From: Chitinophagaceae bacterium | GTDB lineage: Bacteria; Bacteroidota; Bacteroidia; Chitinophagales; Chitinophagaceae | Assembly: GCA_947380435.1 (NCBI GenBank) | Contig: CANCRC010000004.1 | Coordinates: 1 to 36,252, forward strand | DNA length: 36,252 nt | Reading direction: 5' to 3' | Shown: positions 2 to 10,928 of the stretch, piece by piece | Layout of the letters: each line of letters starts with the position of its first letter | Numbering within the stretch: position 1 is the stretch's first letter | Notes under the pieces: generated by a model | Told to the model about the DNA's origin: nothing | Database searches by the model: none | Seen by the model: only the letters and a program-made list of their open reading frames with translations | Position numbers and translations under genes: made by a program

Positions 2-91
2 GCCGGGCTTTTACCCAATGATGAAAAATGGGTAGGAGAGATAGTAAAAAATATTAGTTATTTTAATGCCAAAGAATATTTTAAGCTATGA
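2..91 (+). CDS. uxaC: Glucuronate (uronate) isomerase, C-terminal fragment (truncated by window start)
   Basis: Open frame from base 2 translates to AGLLPNDEKWVGEIVKNISYFNAKEYFKL*, resembling the C-terminus of UxaC (ICYxNAKxYF); its TGA overlaps the ATG of the downstream KDG kinase (ATGA). Confidence 0.6.
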   Translation, partial: AGLLPNDEKWVGEIVKNISYFNAKEYFKL

Positions 92-1089
92 GTATAAACA
101 AAGTATTTTGTTTTGGTGAAATATTACTGCATTATGCACCACCGGTGAATAGTAATTTTATGGAGCAGCAGCAAATGCCTTTTTATTTAGGGGGTGCTGA
201 ATTAAATGTGGCCACTGCATTAGCCAAATGGGATATGCCTGTAAAATATGGAACAGCCATGCCGTCTCATTTTTTAACCGATACTATTATAAGTCATTTA
301 TCGAAAAAAAATATTGATACTTCGGCCATTCAGTTTTCTGGTAATCGTATAGGTTGCTTTTATTTAGCTACAGGCTTGGATATGAAAAGTGCAGGGGTAG
401 TCTATGATAGAGCCCATTCTTCTTTTGCAGAAATTAAGAAGGGAAGTATTCATTGGAAAGAAGTTTTGAAAGATGTGAATTGGTTTCATTTTAGCGCTAT
501 ATCGGCCTCTCTTACTCAAAATGCAACAGATGTTTGCATGGAGGCTTTAATAGCGGCAACAGAACTTGGTATTCCTATATCTGTTGATTTAAATTATAGA
601 GCCAAATTATGGCAGTATGGAAAAACGCCCATTGAAGTAATGTCTCAGTTGGTTAAGTACTGTACTGTATTAATGGGTAATCTTTGGGCGGTAGAAGATA
701 TGTTGGGTATTGCATCTAGTATAAAAACAAGTATCGGATGTTCTAATGAACAATTGTCAATAGCTGCAAATAATAGTATGTTGAAATTAAAAGAGCAGTA
801 CCCTTTGTTAAATACGATTGCCTATACATTTAGGCTAACTGAAACTTATTTTGGAGTCATGTTTAATAAAAATAATTTTTATACGTCTCCAACTTATAAA
901 ATTATAGATGTAAAAAACATAGTGGGTACTGGAGATTGCTTTATGGCGGGTCTTATATATGGAATGTATCATGAAAATACACCAGAGGAATTTATCAATT
1001 TTGCTGCAGCTGCTGCGGTTGGGAAATTATATGAATTAGGCGATGCAACAGAGCAGAGCCCTGAACAAATTAAAAATAGAATGCTATGA
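88..1089 (+). CDS. kdgK: 2-dehydro-3-deoxygluconate kinase (PfkB family)
   Basis: PfkB/ribokinase features (N-terminal GGAELNVATALAKW, C-terminal VGTGDCFMAGLIYGM) and operon context with KDPG aldolase. Confidence 0.85.
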   Translation: MSINKVFCFGEILLHYAPPVNSNFMEQQQMPFYLGGAELNVATALAKWDMPVKYGTAMPSHFLTDTIISHLSKKNIDTSAIQFSGNRIGCFYLATGLDMKSAGVVYDRAHSSFAEIKKGSIHWKEVLKDVNWFHFSAISASLTQNATDVCMEALIAATELGIPISVDLNYRAKLWQYGKTPIEVMSQLVKYCTVLMGNLWAVEDMLGIASSIKTSIGCSNEQLSIAANNSMLKLKEQYPLLNTIAYTFRLTETYFGVMFNKNNFYTSPTYKIIDVKNIVGTGDCFMAGLIYGMYHENTPEEFINFAAAAAVGKLYELGDATEQSPEQIKNRML

Positions 1090-1745
1090 TGACAGAAGAA
1101 CAAATGAAGGCTTATGTAAAAAAGGTAAAATTATTACCTTTATTTTATCATGATGATATTATAGTTTGTAAAGAAATTATCAAAGCATTATATACTGCGG
1201 GTATAAGATGTATTGAATTTACCAACAGAGGGCCGCTGGCTTTGGAGAATTTTAAATTATTATTAGCGCATAGAAATGAAAATTACCCTGACTTATTGTT
1301 AGCTATTGGCACTATTCAAAATCAGAAAGAAGCCCAAGCCTTTATAGAAGCGGGGGCCGATTTTTTAATTAGCCCATTTTTTGATCAGTCCATTGCAGAT
1401 GCAGCTTATTTACATAAGAAGCTTTGGATACCAGGTTGTATGACATCAACGGAAATTCATGTAGCTGAAACGGCGGGCTGTGATTTAATTAAATTATTTC
1501 CAGGTAATGTACTTGGGCCTGGTTTTGTAAATGCTATTAAGCCTTTATTCCCAACACTTAGTTTTTTAGTAACAGGAGGGGTGGAACTAAGTAAAGAAAA
1601 TTTAACTGCTTGGTTTAAAACCGGTGTAGTAGGTGTGGGCATGGGTAGTAAATTAATTAGTAATGAATTATTAGCTGCTAAGAATTATACCGCTATAGCC
1701 TCAGAGACTGCTAAGGCATTGGCAATTATTAATGCCATCAATTAA
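1086..1745 (+). CDS. eda: KDPG / 4-hydroxy-2-oxoglutarate aldolase
   Basis: CDLIKLFPG Schiff-base Lys motif, GIRCIEFTNRGP and VTGGV motifs; 4-nt overlap with kdgK. Confidence 0.88.
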   Translation: MMTEEQMKAYVKKVKLLPLFYHDDIIVCKEIIKALYTAGIRCIEFTNRGPLALENFKLLLAHRNENYPDLLLAIGTIQNQKEAQAFIEAGADFLISPFFDQSIADAAYLHKKLWIPGCMTSTEIHVAETAGCDLIKLFPGNVLGPGFVNAIKPLFPTLSFLVTGGVELSKENLTAWFKTGVVGVGMGSKLISNELLAAKNYTAIASETAKALAIINAIN

Positions 1746-1750
1746 TTTAA

Positions 1751-3334
1751 ATGAAAGTCGCAGCCATTGGTAAATATCGTTGGACTATCTGCGCACTATT
1801 ATTTTTTGCGACCACTGTTAATTATTTAGACAGGCAAGTATTAAGTTTATTAAAACCCACCCTTGAAAAGGAATTTGATTGGACGAATTCCGATTATGCA
1901 AATATTGCATCTGTGTTTCAGTTTGTCTATGCTATTAGTATGTTATTTGCAGGGCGTATTGTAGATAAATTAGGCACGAAATGGGGTTATGCTTTGGCCA
2001 TTATTATTTGGTCATTGGCCGCCATCATTCATGCTTTCGCTGTACCTGTTGGAACAAGTATTATTAGTATTTTAGGTTGGATGGGTATTGCCGCAGTACC
2101 TGTATCTATTGCAGGCTTTATGTTTTCAAGAGCTTTATTAGGATTTGGAGAAGCAGGTAATTTCCCTGCAGCCATTAAAGCCACTGCAGAATATTTTCCT
2201 AAAAAAGAAAGAGCCTTTGCTACTGGTATATTTAATTCAGGAACTAATGTGGGAGCTATTTTAGCTCCTTTATCCGTTCCTTGGATAGCAAGCCATTGGG
2301 GATGGGAGGCCGCCTTTATTATTATTGGAGCCATTGGTTTTCTTTGGTTAATTGCTTGGTTTATTTTTTATGACACACCTCAAAAGCAAATAAGACTAAG
2401 TACTGAAGAAAGAGCATACATTAATAGCGATAATGAAACAGAAGCTAAATTTGAAAATGGTATTCAAACCAATAAAATTTCATGGCTTACTTTACTAAAG
2501 TATAAACAAACATGGGCCTTTGCTATAGGTAAGTTTTTAACCGATGGGGTATGGTGGTTCTTTTTATTTTGGTTACCTGGTTATTTGAAGGATCAATATA
2601 ATATGCAAGGCACTGCTATCATACTGCCTTTATCGGTTTTATATAGTATGACCATGGTGGGTAGTATTGGAGGGGGTTGGTTGCCTACCTATTTTATTAA
2701 TAAAGGCTTCCTGCCTTATGAAGGTCGTATGAAGGCTATGTTACGCATTGCATTTATTCCTTTAGTGGTACTAGCTGTGCAACCTTTTGGATATTTAAGT
2801 TTTTGGGTACCAGTAATATTTATTGGCCTAGGTGCTTCAGCGCATCAGGCATGGTCTGCCAATATTTATACCACTGTTTCAGATATGTTTCCTAAGCGTT
2901 CCATTGCCACCGTTATTGGCATGGGAGGAATGGCAGGAGGTTTGGGAGGGGTAGTGGTTTCTAAAATAGGAGGTTGGTTATTTGATGCGTATAAATTAAA
3001 AGGTATTCAGCAAGGCATAGAATATGCTAATGCAAACGGTTTAGATACTTATTATGCTAAAATAAAAAGCCTTTCCATTTTAGATGCTAAGGGAGAATTC
3101 ATTTATCTTGTAAATAAAGAATGGAGCAATTTGCCAGCTAGTGCTATTGAGAAATTGCAAACCATTGACCCGATCAATTTTGAAAAATTTAGTCAAATGC
3201 AAAAATTATATATTCATGATTCAATGACCTTGGCCTATGGGTATATGTTTACATTTTGTGCAGTAGCTTATTTAATAGCTTGGCGTATTATGAAATGGTT
3301 GGTGCCAAAAGAAAAAATTATAAATATTATTTAA
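1751..3334 (+). CDS. MFS transporter, hexuronate/anion:cation symporter (ExuT-like)
   Basis: Hydrophobic 12-TM-like protein; NYLDRQVLSLLKPTLEKEF and LLGFGEAGNFPAAIKATAEYFPKKERAFATGIFNSGTNVGA are typical of the ACS family. Confidence 0.85.
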   Translation: MKVAAIGKYRWTICALLFFATTVNYLDRQVLSLLKPTLEKEFDWTNSDYANIASVFQFVYAISMLFAGRIVDKLGTKWGYALAIIIWSLAAIIHAFAVPVGTSIISILGWMGIAAVPVSIAGFMFSRALLGFGEAGNFPAAIKATAEYFPKKERAFATGIFNSGTNVGAILAPLSVPWIASHWGWEAAFIIIGAIGFLWLIAWFIFYDTPQKQIRLSTEERAYINSDNETEAKFENGIQTNKISWLTLLKYKQTWAFAIGKFLTDGVWWFFLFWLPGYLKDQYNMQGTAIILPLSVLYSMTMVGSIGGGWLPTYFINKGFLPYEGRMKAMLRIAFIPLVVLAVQPFGYLSFWVPVIFIGLGASAHQAWSANIYTTVSDMFPKRSIATVIGMGGMAGGLGGVVVSKIGGWLFDAYKLKGIQQGIEYANANGLDTYYAKIKSLSILDAKGEFIYLVNKEWSNLPASAIEKLQTIDPINFEKFSQMQKLYIHDSMTLAYGYMFTFCAVAYLIAWRIMKWLVPKEKIINII

Positions 3335-3345
3335 ATAAAGTTTTC

Positions 3346-4734
3346 ATGAAAGAAGTTAAATTAGGATTGCTTGGGGTATTCATTTTTTTGAGTGCTAGCT
3401 TATTGGCACAATCTAAAGTGGAAAACTTATTTAATGGCAAGGATTTAAAAGGCTGGGTGCAATACAATGGTAAAGCAAAGTATACGGTTGAAAATGGAGA
3501 AATTGTAGGAAGAACAGTGCCGAATGAGCCCAATAGTTTTTTATCTACTGAAAAATTATACGGCGATTTTATTTTAGAATTAGACCTTAAAGTAGATGAG
3601 CATATGAATTCGGGTATTCAGTTTAGAAGTGAAATAAACGATGCCAATGATAAATGCACTGTAACAGATAAACATACCCCCAATAGAGTACATGGTTATC
3701 AAATGGAGGTCGATCCTTCCCCTAGAGCCTGGAGTGGTGGTATTTACGACGAAGCTAGAAGAGAGTGGTTATATCCCTTAGAGTATAATACGTCAGCTAA
3801 ATCGGCTTTTAAAAATAATGTTTGGAATCATTATAAAATTGAAGCCATAGGTAATAGTATAAGAACTTGGGTGAATGGTGTAGAATGCGCTCATATTATT
3901 GATAACATGACTTTAAAAGGTTTTATTTCTTTACAAGTGCATGAAATAGGAAATCCTAAGGACGCAGGTCAGGAAGTGCGTTGGAAAAATATTAAAATTC
4001 AAACTACCAATTTGAAACCGGCAGCGCCCTCTTCTTTATTTGTGGTGAATTTAATTCCTAATACCATTTCAGAAGACGAGCAAAGAAATGGTGTAAGGCT
4101 TTTATGGGATGGGCTAAGCAGCAAAGGTTGGAGAGGGGCGTATAAAAATTATTTTCCTGAAAATGTATGGTATGTAAAGGACGGTACTTTAAATGTGAAA
4201 GGATCTAATGGGAAAGAAGCTGCTAATGGAGGAGATATAGTAACCGTGGATGAGTTTCATGCTTTTGATTTACAATTTGAATTTCAAATGTCAGATACTG
4301 CGAATAGTGGTGTAAAATATTTTGTGACTGAAAAAGAAAACAATACTGGTTCTGCGATTGGATTAGAATATCAAATATTAGATGATGATAAACATCCCGA
4401 TGCATTACTTGGGTCTATTGGTAATAGAACCAACGCTTCTTTATATGATATGATTCCTGCTTTAAGAATTGGTGCTGGTAGAAGAGAAAAAATACCTATT
4501 GGCGCTTGGAACAGAGGTCGCATTATTGTTTTTCCTGATGGAAAAATTGAACATTGGATAAATGGATGGAAAGTAGTAGAGTACCAAAGAGGTACTCAAT
4601 ATTTTTATGCATTGGTAGCTAAAAGTAAATATGTGGTATGGCCAAATTTTGGAATGGCTGAAAAAGGGCATATCTTATTGCAAGAACATGGCTACCATGT
4701 AGCCTTTAGAAGTATTAAAATAAAAGAACTATAG
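3346..4734 (+). CDS. Secreted protein with two DUF1080 (3-keto-disaccharide hydrolase-type) domains
   Basis: Signal peptide MKEVKLGLLGVFIFLSASLLAQ; two repeats of LFNGKDLKGW.../LLWDGLSSKGW... with YGDFILELDLKV...NSGIQFR and FDLQFEFQMS...NSGVKYF. The ORF-track start at 3256 overlaps the transporter; Met at 3346 preferred. Confidence 0.82.
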   Translation: MKEVKLGLLGVFIFLSASLLAQSKVENLFNGKDLKGWVQYNGKAKYTVENGEIVGRTVPNEPNSFLSTEKLYGDFILELDLKVDEHMNSGIQFRSEINDANDKCTVTDKHTPNRVHGYQMEVDPSPRAWSGGIYDEARREWLYPLEYNTSAKSAFKNNVWNHYKIEAIGNSIRTWVNGVECAHIIDNMTLKGFISLQVHEIGNPKDAGQEVRWKNIKIQTTNLKPAAPSSLFVVNLIPNTISEDEQRNGVRLLWDGLSSKGWRGAYKNYFPENVWYVKDGTLNVKGSNGKEAANGGDIVTVDEFHAFDLQFEFQMSDTANSGVKYFVTEKENNTGSAIGLEYQILDDDKHPDALLGSIGNRTNASLYDMIPALRIGAGRREKIPIGAWNRGRIIVFPDGKIEHWINGWKVVEYQRGTQYFYALVAKSKYVVWPNFGMAEKGHILLQEHGYHVAFRSIKIKEL

Positions 4735-4796
4735 AAATCAAAATTATAAAAAGCAACATTTTCAACTTATTATAGTAAGTCATTAAAAACAAGTTT

Positions 4797-6155
4797 ATGA
4801 AAAATTCAAGAAGAAATTTTATTAAAACAACCACCAAGGCTACAGCAGCTACTTATGCTGCCACCTTAGGATTTTCTGCTAAAAGTTATGCCAATATCAT
4901 GGGTGCTAATGATAGAGTAAGACTAGGTGTGGTAGGTTATTCAGATAGGTTTAGACAAACGCATCTACCTTGTTTTTTGAATCATTATAAGGAATTGAAT
5001 TTTGAAATTGTAGCCGTTTCAGATATATGGAAAATAAGAAGAGAAGAAGGTAAAGATTTTTTAGAAAAAACTTTTGGACATTCTATAAGAGCTGCGCGCA
5101 ACAATGAAGAACTATATGCAGGAAAAGATATTGATGGCGTTTTTATTAGTACAGCCGATTTTCAACATGCCATTCATGCCACAGAAGCTGTCAATGCAGG
5201 TATGGATGTTTACTGTGAAAAGCCTTTTGCAGAAACCATGGAAGACAATAGAATGGCCTTAAAAACTATTAAAGCTTCTGATAGAATTGTACAAATTGGT
5301 TCACAGAGAAGAAGTGGCCCTAATTATCAGGCTGCTGCCGAATTTATTCAAGCTGGAAAGTTTGGACCCATTACCATGGTGGAATTAACTTGGAATGTAA
5401 ACCAACCTGGCCGTTGGAGAAGACCAGACTTAGTCGCAAAATGTAAAGAAGAGGATTTAGATTGGAACCGTTTTTTATTAAATCGTCCGCATGAAAATTT
5501 TGATCCCAGAAAATATTTAGAGTATAGATTGTTCTGGCCTTATTCATCTGGCATGCCTGGACAATGGATGAGTCATCAAATAGATACAGTGAATTGGTTC
5601 AGTCAGTTACCACATCCAAGAAGTGTAACTGCTAATGGTGGGGTATATGCTTGGAAAGATGGAAGAAAAAACTGGGATACCACTACAGCTGTATTTGACT
5701 ACGGCCCTTTAGATGATATGTCTAAAGGTTTTCAAGTTGTATTTATGTCTCGTATGCATAATGGCGATGAAAACCCTTCTGAAATTTATTATTCCAATGG
5801 AGGCGAATTAAATTTAGTAACTAATATGGTTTCTTCTAATGGTGGTTTGCAAGCAGGTTCAGCTGCTGCTATGAAAATGCAGCCTAATTTATTAGAGAAG
5901 TATAATTTATCGGACAATGCAACCAAGGTGGCAGCCTCAGCTAATACGGGTGGAGATGTACTCACTTCTGCACATGTGCGTAATTGGATGGAATGTATAA
6001 GATCAAGAAAACAACCTAATGCACCAGTAGAAGCGGGTTATCAGCATTCTATTGCTAATATTATGACCAATGCGGCTTGTCGCACAGGGGCAAAAGTAAG
6101 CTTCGATGAAAAAACACAGGAGGTAATGGCAAACGGGAAGGTATTTAAGTATTAG
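4797..6155 (+). CDS. Gfo/Idh/MocA family oxidoreductase with Tat signal
   Basis: Twin-arginine N-terminus SRRNFIKTTTKATAATYAATLG; YCEKPFAETMEDN motif of Gfo/Idh/MocA enzymes. Confidence 0.88.
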   Translation: MKNSRRNFIKTTTKATAATYAATLGFSAKSYANIMGANDRVRLGVVGYSDRFRQTHLPCFLNHYKELNFEIVAVSDIWKIRREEGKDFLEKTFGHSIRAARNNEELYAGKDIDGVFISTADFQHAIHATEAVNAGMDVYCEKPFAETMEDNRMALKTIKASDRIVQIGSQRRSGPNYQAAAEFIQAGKFGPITMVELTWNVNQPGRWRRPDLVAKCKEEDLDWNRFLLNRPHENFDPRKYLEYRLFWPYSSGMPGQWMSHQIDTVNWFSQLPHPRSVTANGGVYAWKDGRKNWDTTTAVFDYGPLDDMSKGFQVVFMSRMHNGDENPSEIYYSNGGELNLVTNMVSSNGGLQAGSAAAMKMQPNLLEKYNLSDNATKVAASANTGGDVLTSAHVRNWMECIRSRKQPNAPVEAGYQHSIANIMTNAACRTGAKVSFDEKTQEVMANGKVFKY

Positions 6156-6164
6156 TTTTATGTA

Positions 6165-7823
6165 CTAATCGACCTTATACATTTTCTCATAATACTCTTC
6201 GGCCATTCTATTGCTGTCAAATTGGAAACGAACATCCTTCATTCCGTTTTGTGTAATCTGACGCCAAGTATCTTTGTTGTCATAATACATAGGAACTATT
6301 TGTTGCTCTAAAATTTTATATAATTCATCTAAATCGTAGTCGTCTTGTTGTTGTGTGCTCATGTTTTCATAATCGGCCTTTGGAATTACAAAGCCATTAT
6401 TTCCATGATTAATAAATTCTGGTATCCATCCATCATCGGTAGAGAAGTTAATGGCGCCATTCATTGCAGCGGTCATGCCGCTTGTTCCTGAAGCTTCTCT
6501 TGGCACACGCGGGTTATTTAGCCAAACATCTGAAGCTTGTTTCATTCTCTTGCTTAAACCTAATTCATAACCAATTAATACAGCTACATTATTATAGTTC
6601 TTACTTAAGTGTACTAAATTATTGAATTGAGAAATGGCAGGATGGTCTACTGGATAAGGTTTGCCTGCAAATATAATTTGTACCGGATATTTTGCATTAG
6701 AAAGCAATTTTTCAAAACGATCTAAATCCCATGACAAGAAATCGGCTCTTTTATAGCCAGCAAAACGTCTTGCCCAAACAATGGTTAAAACATTCGGGTC
6801 AAATACTTTTCCTGTTTGATCGGCTACAATTTCAAAAGCGCGTTTTTTCAAATACATTTTACGGTCATCAAATCCTGCTTCATCTTGATTTTCTGCAAAA
6901 CGGTATAATTGTTTATCGGCCCAGTAGCGCCAGTTCTGTGCGTTGGTAATATGGGTGATAGGGCAGATGCCATCATACTTACTCCATAATTCTCTACTTA
7001 CATGTCCGTGTAGTTCAGAAACGCCATTGGCTTTTCTGGCAAAACGAAGGGCTGCTAAAGAGTGATTGAACTGATCGTCTTCAATACCTGTTAATTTTCT
7101 TACTTCATCCATACTTAAGCCACAGAAATAACCCATTTTATGACATAAATAAATATCGTGTTTTTCATTGCCTGCTTCTTCTGGGGTATGGGTAGTGAAC
7201 ACTAAACGTTTTTTAACTTCTGCTAAGGACTTAAATTTATTCAATAAATAAAAGGCTGCAGAGAATCCATGGGCTTCATTTAAATGATATACTTCCGGAT
7301 TGAAATTTAATTCATCAATTAATTTTGCACCGGCAACACCTAATAAAATAAATTGAGCCACTTTGGTTGCAACATTGGCATCATATAAACGGTGCGTGAT
7401 GGTTTGAGAAACATAATCGTTCTCAGGTAAATCGGTGCTTAATAAAAATAGGGGAGCACTGCAAAAAGTATTAGGCGCTAAATAAAATGCCTTTACCCAT
7501 ACTGGATGGTCATGAATAAGTATTTGGTATTTAATACCTGTGTCTTCTAAGAAAGAATATATTTTTTCCATGAAAGTTACCTGCAAGGTTTGGTCTTGGT
7601 TGCGCGCTTGGTCATAGTAACCATACTTCCATAAAATACCTACACCAATTAAATTTTGGTTTAACTCAAAAGCACTTCTTAAATGGGAGCCTGCTAAAAA
7701 ACCTAGGCCACCACTATATATTTTCAAAGGTTGATGAATAGCAAATTCCATAGAAAAATAAGCTGCCTTTTTCTTGAATTGATCATTAATAGCATAAGGC
7801 ACTTGATAGTTTCTAAAACTCAT
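6165..7823 (-). CDS. glgP: Alpha-glucan phosphorylase-like protein (short GT35-type), PLP Lys replaced by Thr
   Basis: THTPEEAGNEKHD, VWARRFAGYKRADFL and EASGTSGMTAAMNGAINFSTDDGW match phosphorylase motifs; see finding about the missing PLP lysine. Confidence 0.8.
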   Translation of the reverse strand: MSFRNYQVPYAINDQFKKKAAYFSMEFAIHQPLKIYSGGLGFLAGSHLRSAFELNQNLIGVGILWKYGYYDQARNQDQTLQVTFMEKIYSFLEDTGIKYQILIHDHPVWVKAFYLAPNTFCSAPLFLLSTDLPENDYVSQTITHRLYDANVATKVAQFILLGVAGAKLIDELNFNPEVYHLNEAHGFSAAFYLLNKFKSLAEVKKRLVFTTHTPEEAGNEKHDIYLCHKMGYFCGLSMDEVRKLTGIEDDQFNHSLAALRFARKANGVSELHGHVSRELWSKYDGICPITHITNAQNWRYWADKQLYRFAENQDEAGFDDRKMYLKKRAFEIVADQTGKVFDPNVLTIVWARRFAGYKRADFLSWDLDRFEKLLSNAKYPVQIIFAGKPYPVDHPAISQFNNLVHLSKNYNNVAVLIGYELGLSKRMKQASDVWLNNPRVPREASGTSGMTAAMNGAINFSTDDGWIPEFINHGNNGFVIPKADYENMSTQQQDDYDLDELYKILEQQIVPMYYDNKDTWRQITQNGMKDVRFQFDSNRMAEEYYEKMYKVD

Positions 7824-7929: not shown

Positions 7930-8877
7930 TTATTTCTTCTTTTTTACCTTTCTTTTTTTGTCATAACTATCATTAAAATAGCAGGTCATATTGCGGTGAT
8001 TTCCACAATTCCCATCTTCTTTAATATTTATAACATTGCCTTGTATGGTGAAATGAATAATACAAGGATCTCCTTTTTCTGAATAAGTAGCTTGGTTTTT
8101 TGTGAAATTCATCATGCCTTTTAATTCACCTGTACAGCTACCATTCTGTTTTTCAAAATGCAAGAAAAATTGATACTTATTTTGAACAGCGTAGTCTCTT
8201 ATAGAAATAAAATTTTTAGCATCTCTTGCATAGTCCCCACTATAGGTATTATTCATAGACATAGTGTCTAGAGGGTTGAGCACTTTTTTAGTTTCTGGTT
8301 TTTTATTGCTATCAAAATAAATTAATCTAAAACTACTATCGGTATAAGCCCATCCCTTTTTTTCGTATGTAAGAGAATTGTCTTCTGCTAATTTATTTTC
8401 TTCCACTAAAAAAGATGGCTCTCTATTAATATTTAAATTCTTTCCATACATTTTAGAACTATGATTCTCCTCATTAAATTCTGTAATCACTTTATAATCT
8501 AAGAACTTATTTTTTTTGCTAAATACCACTACCGCTATTTCTTGTTTTTTAGGATGGCTTACATTTAATAATAAATAGTATTCTTCTTCTTTTTCAATTC
8601 TAATAATAGGATGTAGGAAAGCTTTTTTATCTTTGATGCCTACTATGTTTTCAACAATGGAGTCTGGTACAAACTGCGCCAATGCTTTACGACCAATTAT
8701 TAAAGTATCTGTAAACTTGTGCAAATTGGAATCGGAAATAGAAGTAGGTAAACTAGCTGCTTTAAATACTTTATTAAAGTCATTAATGGTAAGGGGCGTA
8801 TTGCCCGTTAAGTCCGGTTTTTTCTCCGAGCATGCAATGATAAAGCAGTAGAATAATATAAAGTAGCCCTTACGCAT
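7930..8877 (-). CDS. Hypothetical lipoprotein
   Basis: Lipobox-like N-terminus MRKGYFILFYCFIIAC; Lys-rich C-terminus; no family recognised. Confidence 0.65.
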   Translation of the reverse strand: MRKGYFILFYCFIIACSEKKPDLTGNTPLTINDFNKVFKAASLPTSISDSNLHKFTDTLIIGRKALAQFVPDSIVENIVGIKDKKAFLHPIIRIEKEEEYYLLLNVSHPKKQEIAVVVFSKKNKFLDYKVITEFNEENHSSKMYGKNLNINREPSFLVEENKLAEDNSLTYEKKGWAYTDSSFRLIYFDSNKKPETKKVLNPLDTMSMNNTYSGDYARDAKNFISIRDYAVQNKYQFFLHFEKQNGSCTGELKGMMNFTKNQATYSEKGDPCIIHFTIQGNVINIKEDGNCGNHRNMTCYFNDSYDKKRKVKKKK

Positions 8878-8977: not shown

Positions 8978-9059
8978 AAGGGCCAAAATCGACACTGACC
9001 ATTAGTTATATAATTATTAGGTGCTTGATGAAGTATTTAATTTAGAAGGAAGTACAATT

Positions 9060-10928
9060 ATGAGAGAAAAGTCATTAGATAACTTAAACGAGTCGGTTCC
9101 CGTCCAAAATAAAGGCGGGTGGCGTAAGCTATTGGCTTTTATGGGACCTGCTTATTTGGTAAGTGTGGGATATATGGACCCAGGTAATTGGGCCACCGAT
9201 TTACAGGGGGGTGCTCAATTTGGCTACCAATTAATTTGGGTTTTATTATTGAGTAATTTAATGGCCATTCTATTACAAAGTTTAAGTGCAAGATTGGGTA
9301 TTGTGCGCAGGTTAGATTTAGCGCAAGCCAATAGAGAAACCTATCCTCGTTTTGTAAATTTCATATTATATATATTAGCAGAGATTGCGATTGCCGCCAC
9401 CGACTTAGCAGAAGTATTAGGCATGGCCATTGGTATTAAATTATTAACAGGTATGCCATTAATGTATGGTACTTTAATAACTGTTTTTGATACTTTTCTA
9501 TTTTTATTCTTACAACGTTATGGTATACGTAAATTGGAAGCCTTTATTTTAGTATTGGTAGCTACCATTGGTTTTAGTTTTCTAATACAATTGTTTATTG
9601 CTAAACCCGATTTATCTTATGCCATTAAAGGTTTTATTCCTTCCAAATTATCACCAGCTGCTTTATATATAGCCGTGGGTATTATTGGTGCCACCGTAAT
9701 GCCGCATAATTTATACTTACATTCTGCTTTAGTACAAACCAGGAAAATTGAAAGAACCAGTAAGGGTATAAGAAAATCTATTTGGTATAATTTTATAGAT
9801 AGTGCTGTAGCTTTAAATGCTGCCTTTTTTGTAAATGCTTCCATTTTAATTTTAGCCGCCACTGCTTTTTTTACAACAGGTAATACGCATGTTGCAAGAA
9901 TTGAAGAAGCGCATGCTATGCTAGCCCCTTTGTTAGGTTCTAGATTAGCACCTATATTATTTGCCATTGCTTTAATTGCTGCAGGCCAAAGCTCAACAGT
10001 GACGGGCACTTTAGCAGGTCAAATAGTAATGGAGGGGTATTTAAAATTAAGATTGAATCCCTGGATAAGACGATTGTTAACCCGCCTTCTTGCTATTATT
10101 CCTGCACTATTAGTGATTGGTATTATGGGAGAAGAACATGTAGACGAGCTATTGGTGTTTAGCCAAGTAATATTAAGTTTACAATTAGGCTTTGCGGTTA
10201 TTCCATTAATACATTTCGTGAGTGATAAAACCACTATGGGAGAATTTGTAATTAATTGGAAAGTAAAAGCCATGGCTTGGATAGTAGCTAGCATTTTGGT
10301 GTTTTTAAATGGAAACTTAGTACTAAGTTTTGTGATAAATTATTATCAAGGGGCAGGCAGTGTATTTGTAAAAATATTTTTGATAGTAATAGTACTTTTA
10401 TTTTTAGTACTACTTATTTACATCATTGCATTTCCCATTTTTCTAAAAAGACACCATGCGAAGGTGGAGGAGGGTTTTCATGGGGAGATGATTGAACTAG
10501 ATTGGAGTCAAGAGGCGCCTGTGAATAAAATTGCCATTGCGGTTGATTTTTCAGTAGCCGATGCAAAGCTTATTAAAACAGCTATTCAACATGCACATGA
10601 GGCCACTGAATTTATTTTTATACATGTAGTGGAAAGTGCTACTGCTAAATATTTAAAGGAGTCTAGCGATGATAATGAAACCAGAAAAGACCAAGCAAGA
10701 CTAGATACCTATGCCCATGCGCTACAATTAAAAGGGTATAAGGCCACTACTTATTTAGGCTATGAAAATAGGGTGAAGGAAATTGTTAAAATGGTAGCTT
10801 CTTATGAGGCTAAATTACTGGTCATGGGAGGGCATCGCCACCAAGGTTGGAAGGACTATATTTTTGGCGAAACCATTGAATCTGTTAGGCATAAAGTAAA
10901 GATTCCGGTACTTATTGTGAATATATAA
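9060..10928 (+). CDS. mntH: Nramp-family divalent metal transporter fused to C-terminal UspA domain
   Basis: GYMDPGNWATDLQGGAQFGY (TM1 DPGN) and VMPHNLYLHSALVQTR (TM6 MPH); C-terminal ~145 aa UspA-like (IAIAVDFS...LLVMGGHRHQGWKDYIFGETIESV...PVLIVNI). Met14 of the ORF preferred. Confidence 0.88.
   Translation: MREKSLDNLNESVPVQNKGGWRKLLAFMGPAYLVSVGYMDPGNWATDLQGGAQFGYQLIWVLLLSNLMAILLQSLSARLGIVRRLDLAQANRETYPRFVNFILYILAEIAIAATDLAEVLGMAIGIKLLTGMPLMYGTLITVFDTFLFLFLQRYGIRKLEAFILVLVATIGFSFLIQLFIAKPDLSYAIKGFIPSKLSPAALYIAVGIIGATVMPHNLYLHSALVQTRKIERTSKGIRKSIWYNFIDSAVALNAAFFVNASILILAATAFFTTGNTHVARIEEAHAMLAPLLGSRLAPILFAIALIAAGQSSTVTGTLAGQIVMEGYLKLRLNPWIRRLLTRLLAIIPALLVIGIMGEEHVDELLVFSQVILSLQLGFAVIPLIHFVSDKTTMGEFVINWKVKAMAWIVASILVFLNGNLVLSFVINYYQGAGSVFVKIFLIVIVLLFLVLLIYIIAFPIFLKRHHAKVEEGFHGEMIELDWSQEAPVNKIAIAVDFSVADAKLIKTAIQHAHEATEFIFIHVVESATAKYLKESSDDNETRKDQARLDTYAHALQLKGYKATTYLGYENRVKEIVKMVASYEAKLLVMGGHRHQGWKDYIFGETIESVRHKVKIPVLIVNI

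Follow-up and report, generated by a model that had tools for sequence, protein, structure and literature searches.

The window analyzed here, a 36,252-nucleotide stretch of a Chitinophagaceae bacterium genome (contig CANCRC010000004.1), carries on its minus strand a GT35-like gene whose product has threonine at the position of the PLP-binding lysine. The gene, its conserved motifs, and its upstream neighbor are listed below by window position, with residue numbers of the protein in parentheses. Rabbit residue numbers refer to muscle phosphorylase. The clade named in the list consists of the homologues with Thr or Ser at this position, and Lys-type denotes GT35 proteins that keep the lysine.

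6165 to 7823, minus strand: GT35-like gene of the Thr/Ser clade, 552 amino acids (TIGR02094, AlphaFold2, Foldseek)
6471 to 6473, minus strand: codon 451, ACC (Thr), at the position of the PLP Schiff-base lysine (HMMER alignment, homologues)
6471 to 6497, minus strand: EASGTSGMT motif (443-451), with E443 equivalent to rabbit E672 and T447/S448/G449 as the PLP-phosphate loop
6540 to 6542, minus strand: K428, a clade-invariant lysine, Lys in 125 of 125 members and V, I, T, or Y in 27 of 27 Lys-type proteins
6561 to 6572, minus strand: GYEL loop (418-421), with Y419 equivalent to rabbit Y648; the clade-specific G418 and E420 give it a likeness to the GT5 GYxE loop
6651 to 6665, minus strand: GKPYP (387-391), with K388 kept and P389/Y390 clade-specific (A/H in Lys-type proteins)
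6747 to 6770, minus strand: RRFAGYKR (352-359), with the phosphate-site residues R353 (rabbit R569) and K358 (rabbit K574) kept
6936 to 6947, minus strand: TNAQ (293-296), with N294 (rabbit N484) kept and Q296 clade-specific (V/I in Lys-type proteins)
7164 to 7199, minus strand: FTTHTPEEAGNE (209-220), with HTP kept and E215, N219, and E220 clade-specific
7701 to 7718, minus strand: conserved YSGGLG glycine loop (36-41) in the N-terminal Rossmann domain
7930 to 8877, minus strand: upstream neighbor, 315 amino acids, no Pfam match

The 315-amino-acid gene lies directly upstream of the GT35-like gene, with which it is possibly co-transcribed, and the two are neighbors in 22 Chitinophagaceae-type loci, that of the window among them. 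The homologue at locus L057 (MHKYLLISLLFLMAIACKDE...) makes it probable that the product is a lipoprotein. Positions 88 to 6155 of the plus strand hold a cluster of PfkB kinase, KDPG/KHG aldolase, MFS transporter, 3-keto-disaccharide hydrolase, and Gfo/Idh/MocA oxidoreductase genes that looks like a sugar-acid or 3-keto-sugar utilization operon. A gene for an Nramp metal transporter with a fused universal stress protein (Usp) domain is located at positions 9021 to 10,928 (plus strand). Glycogen genes are not among the neighbors of the GT35-like gene in the window; a glgA-glgC-MFS-GH13-glgB cluster lies on another contig of the host genome. PADLOC returned no defense-gene match for the GT35-like gene, and a defense reading was therefore dropped.

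By homology, the 552-amino-acid protein is a member of the TIGR02094/GT35 superfamily. It scores 437.4 bits against TIGR02094 (alpha-glucan family phosphorylase), above the family cut-off of 191.7, and other clade members score 406 to 454 bits. A profile search found it to be the only PF00343 match, and thus the sole GT35 protein, of the host genome. The AlphaFold2 model (43 sequences) has a pLDDT of 90.4, and its best PDB match by Foldseek is the Segatella copri glycogen phosphorylase (PDB 9l6i, also 20yr; TIGR02094), with a TM-score of 0.90 over the query length, E = 9.8e-46, and 28% identity. The predicted fold is thus the GT-B fold of phosphorylases. The two proteins have the YSGGLG, HTP, TN, RR..YKR, GK, and EASGTSG motifs in common; the window protein has Thr for the PLP lysine and lacks about 90 N-terminal and about 140 C-terminal residues of the 852-amino-acid Segatella copri enzyme. 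Compared with canonical GT35 enzymes (TIGR02093, PF00343; rabbit glycogen phosphorylase, E. coli MalP/GlgP), it keeps the equivalents of E672, R569, K574, N484, W491, Y648, and T676 but has neither the K680/K646 lysine nor the regulatory N-terminal part, and only its C-terminal half matches PF00343. Short Lys-type TIGR02094 proteins of about 560 to 600 amino acids (L053 and L154; Simkania, Criblamydia, and Chroococcidiopsis plasmids) are similar in length and domain make-up but keep EASGTSGMK. Short length and lysine loss are therefore separate traits, and the idea that a short form means no lysine was rejected.

At 6471 to 6473 the plus strand reads GGT, which gives ACC, Thr451, on the minus strand. 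HMMER alignment against solved phosphorylases places Thr451, with no gap, opposite the lysine of EASGTSGEK (9l6i) and of EASGTSNMK (canonical enzymes), the position of K680 in rabbit muscle phosphorylase and K646 in E. coli MalP. A first-pass annotation had called a threonine with codon ACC at this position, which the codon check and the alignment bear out. The threonine itself is confirmed; what that annotation had missed is that the trait, as Thr or Ser, defines a whole clade and not one odd protein. Mapping the position across homologues, as that annotation had proposed, gave 112 Thr, 12 Ser, and 0 Lys among 124 close homologues, so that the Schiff-base lysine of PLP-dependent glycogen phosphorylases is absent from all of them. 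Copies from the same genus, 82 to 95% identical to the window protein, all have Thr. Sequencing error or chance is excluded by the 124 homologues without a lysine, and a pseudogene by a dN/dS of 0.026 to 0.032 against same-genus relatives, a rough figure because dS is near saturation. The clade is under strong purifying selection. RefSeq names its members glgP, alpha-glucan family phosphorylase (for example, WP_114070759.1 and WP_025603925.1), and no paper reporting GT35 proteins without the PLP lysine was found in the open-access PMC literature.

To collect the homologues, 198 genomes of the phylum and 31 relatives were searched, and one genome per species was scanned with two conserved peptides, neither of which covers position 451. 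Carriers occur in Bacteroidota (Chitinophagales, Cytophagales, Sphingobacteriales, Flavobacteriales, and Saprospiria), Verrucomicrobiota (an Akkermansia among them), and Campylobacterota (Sulfurovum, Sulfuricurvum, and Sulfurimonas). The lysine is kept in 32 of 32 other GT35 proteins checked, that is, 27 of the set and five further ones from Actinomycetota, Chlamydiota, Cyanobacteriota, and Deinococcota plasmids. A tree built without column 451 places the Thr/Ser proteins on one side of a branch with support of 100/100 and a long stem. Rooting with GT5 was tried as a test of whether the threonine is ancestral, but the order of the GT35 branches came out as a polytomy with long branches from which the direction of the Lys/Thr change was not recovered. 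Loss of the lysine is the simpler reading, because Lys is present in the canonical enzymes and in several TIGR02094 lineages. Mutual exclusion of Thr-type and Lys-type proteins was also considered and dropped, since the count of 0 genomes with both in the class sample compares with a chance expectation of about one (Fisher p = 0.6).

Around the altered position the site is intact. E443, R353, Y357, K358, K388, N294, W301, H212, T447, S448, and G449 are invariant over 125 clade members, as in Lys-type proteins, and Y419 is present in 123 of the 125. Among these, E443, R353, K358, N294, and T447 represent the substrate- and phosphate-site residues E672, R569, K574, N484, and T676. The first-pass annotation had described the phosphate- and sugar-site motifs as retained, and these residues are indeed invariant; the Arg at the K568 position of VWARRFAGYKR, in contrast, is not special to the window protein and is also found in Lys-bearing TIGR02094 relatives. 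The clade has near-invariant residues of its own, namely Q296, W350, P389/Y390, G418, E420, S424, and K428. Differences from the Segatella copri enzyme include Q296, W350, P389/Y390, G418, E420, and K428. From the alignment, we infer that the clade-specific residues surround the cofactor pocket. A hydroxyl seems to be required at position 451: with T or S in 124 of 124 homologues and no other residue, its retention presumably serves a purpose, and the site shows no decay.

The clade also resembles GT5 glycogen synthases (GlgA) more closely than Lys-type GT35 proteins do. The NCBI GlgA model TIGR02095 matches six of six clade members at 22 to 50 bits, and one of five Lys-type members (18.9 bits; the other four gave no match). 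The window protein itself scores 49.3 bits against a cut-off of 328.45, which places it outside GT5. A locally built GlgA HMM gave medians of 29 bits for the clade (minimum 11.6), 5 for Lys-type proteins (maximum 15.8), and about 0 for canonical enzymes; the sequences in this comparison are related, and its p-value is not to be taken at face value. In profile-profile comparisons, the local scores against GT5 were 88 for the clade and 70 for Lys-type proteins, and against canonical glycogen phosphorylase 101 and 237, respectively. Plain drift would reduce both similarities, and the pattern therefore points to GT-B nucleotide-site features that may have been retained or regained. The clade and GT5 GlgA have the GT-B fold and a GYxE-like loop in common; GlgA has EPCGLxQxY where the clade has EASGTSGMT. 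In the alignment, EASGTSGMT lines up with the GT4 EX7E segment and position 451 with its second Glu, which contacts the donor ribose in GT4 enzymes and is present in the GT4 protein of locus L133 (EPFGIINVE). The clade has T/S there and so lacks the GT4-type EX7E motif.

Neither HMM nor profile-profile scores showed any closeness of the clade to GT3 synthases. High GT3 scores of Lys-type proteins stem from GT3-GT35 fusion frames, and a GT3 likeness was dropped. In G249:C2, G305:C28, and G263:C91 (L140, L141, and L145), a GT3-type glycogen synthase and a Lys-type GT35 protein share one open frame of 1173 to 1420 amino acids, which combines glycogen synthesis and degradation in one polypeptide.

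A PF00343 search found the clade member to be the only GT35 protein in 55 of 57 carrier genomes, many of which are MAGs of uncertain completeness; the other two (G020 and G353) also have a canonical phosphorylase. Among 27 carriers, 14 have GT5 GlgA and nine a GT3 synthase. Neither synthase occurs in 20 GT35-less genomes of the class (Fisher p ~1e-9), which were not phylogenetically matched to the carriers. A GT5 search of 27 further carriers gave GlgA above the cut-off in 13 and a weaker or partial match in six. Strong GlgC matches and the clade co-occur beyond chance (6/13, Fisher p = 0.0006). A third route, GlgE, is found in G148 and in two Flavobacteriaceae loci. In one of these (L133), GlgC with GT4, GlgE, GlgB, GH31, and GT35 lie together; in the other (L129), a GlgE-sized protein, maltokinase, GlgB, a GH31-sized protein, and GT35 do. 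The clade thus accompanies three non-homologous glycogen-making routes. In Campylobacterota, the order glgA-glgB-GT35 is operon-like in a Sulfuricurvum (L120), pgm adjoins GT35 at L121 and L125 and pgi at L126, and a Sulfurovum locus (L115) has genes for GH57, a GalT-like protein, PFK, and a sugar-1-phosphate nucleotidyltransferase/mutase beside GT35.

The reading that we favor, at a little short of an even chance, is an active GT-B glucosyltransferase that acts on intracellular glycogen or maltodextrin without Lys-anchored PLP, in a phosphorylase-like degradative role. The enzyme would take glucose off the non-reducing ends of alpha-1,4-glucan, as glycogen phosphorylase does, with the glucosyl acceptor at the place of the phosphorylase's phosphate (R353, K358, K388, and the T447-G449 loop). 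The lysine is lost, and PLP, if present, would therefore not be anchored in the known way. The acid/base phosphate would instead be supplied by PLP that is bound with no Schiff base, or by another phosphate-bearing ligand in the same pocket, which W301, Y419, T/S451, E420, and K428 would line. According to PMC11046441, it is through its 5'-phosphate that PLP works in phosphorylase, and a loosely bound PLP or some other ligand with a phosphate could therefore serve. These are the activity, direction, and ligand that we infer for the clade enzyme. Since the clade accompanies all three synthesis routes, acting on the shared polymer is likelier than being a synthase, and the protein most likely does so in the place of glycogen phosphorylase. 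Counting against this reading are the non-glycogen neighbors in the window, the Algoriphagus-like carriers G106, G141, and G224, in which neither a GT5 nor a GT3 synthase was found (a GT5 synthase was also not found in a fourth, G340), and three genomes (G032, G051, and G055) that have GlgA/GlgC with no GT35 found, so that GT35 is dispensable for glycogen users.

The likeliest alternative, itself rather unlikely, is a PLP-free, nucleotide-dependent glucosyltransferase with NDP in the PLP pocket as in GT5. Such an enzyme would extend glucan from NDP-glucose or run in reverse, forming NDP-glucose from glucan and NDP as sucrose synthase does with sucrose. The GlgA model and HMM scores, the GYxE-like G418/E420, and the coincidence of position 451 with the second EX7E Glu agree with it, and the closer GT5 match suits a nucleotide-sugar donor no less than a phosphorylase-like role. 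The GT5 resemblance is nevertheless modest and far under the family cut-off, T/S is neither the EX7E Glu nor the GT5 Tyr, the nearest solved fold relative is a phosphorylase, and GT5, GT3, or GlgE synthesis is already available in most of the carrier genomes. That the clade is a deeply conserved GT35 branch performing PLP-free glycogen chemistry with a nucleotide in the PLP pocket, in either direction, is a rather improbable reading; if true, the branch would be the present-day equivalent of the NDP-sugar-dependent proto-GT35 that PMC11046441 proposes as the ancestor of phosphorylases.

A migrated lysine, with PLP bound covalently through K428 or K322, is a lesser prospect still. Each is Lys in 125 of 125 clade members, and among 27 Lys680-type relatives K428 is Lys in none and K322 in one. 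K428 aligns with rabbit I657, on a helix that begins two turns earlier with the equivalent of the PLP-stacking Tyr648, and could act as a replacement charge or as another lysine for PLP; invariance alone is no proof that it faces the pocket. Of the three outcomes that the first-pass annotation offered, a non-canonical phosphorylase and a PLP-independent glycosyltransferase are both still plausible. The third, a regulatory pseudoenzyme, here a catalytically dead regulator or glucan-binding scaffold, is disfavored and very improbable. The residue that defines the cofactor site is lost, but the remaining catalytic-site residues are all invariant over the 125 sequences at a dN/dS of about 0.03, and a sole GT35 protein usually has no active paralogue to regulate.

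PLP is regarded as defining and essential for GT35. How it entered a GT-B fold that uses nucleotide sugars becomes testable, with a small protein, through this large natural clade, which either shed the lysine or never possessed it and still supplies the sole GT35 protein of most hosts. Many labels of the glgP, alpha-glucan family phosphorylase kind rest on assumption, and the genes may use a different glycogen chemistry. The same holds for the glycogen-degradation pathways called on the strength of these labels in Chitinophagaceae, Chryseobacterium, Pedobacter, Hymenobacter, Sulfuricurvum, and Akkermansia relatives.

Some genomes (G003, G129, G220, G334, G337, and G356) contain two Thr/Ser-type or short GT35 paralogues; in the second copy of G003 (L023), EASG is changed to EACG. 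The GT35-like gene follows a carboxylesterase gene in the four Algoriphagus-like carriers and precedes a zinc carboxypeptidase gene at L080. Two plasmids carry a Thr-type gene beside stress or redox genes: in Runella rosea (L168), the neighbors encode a pyridoxamine 5'-phosphate oxidase family protein and thioredoxin, and in Pontibacter actiniarum (L169), a type II GAPDH and a formate/nitrite transporter.
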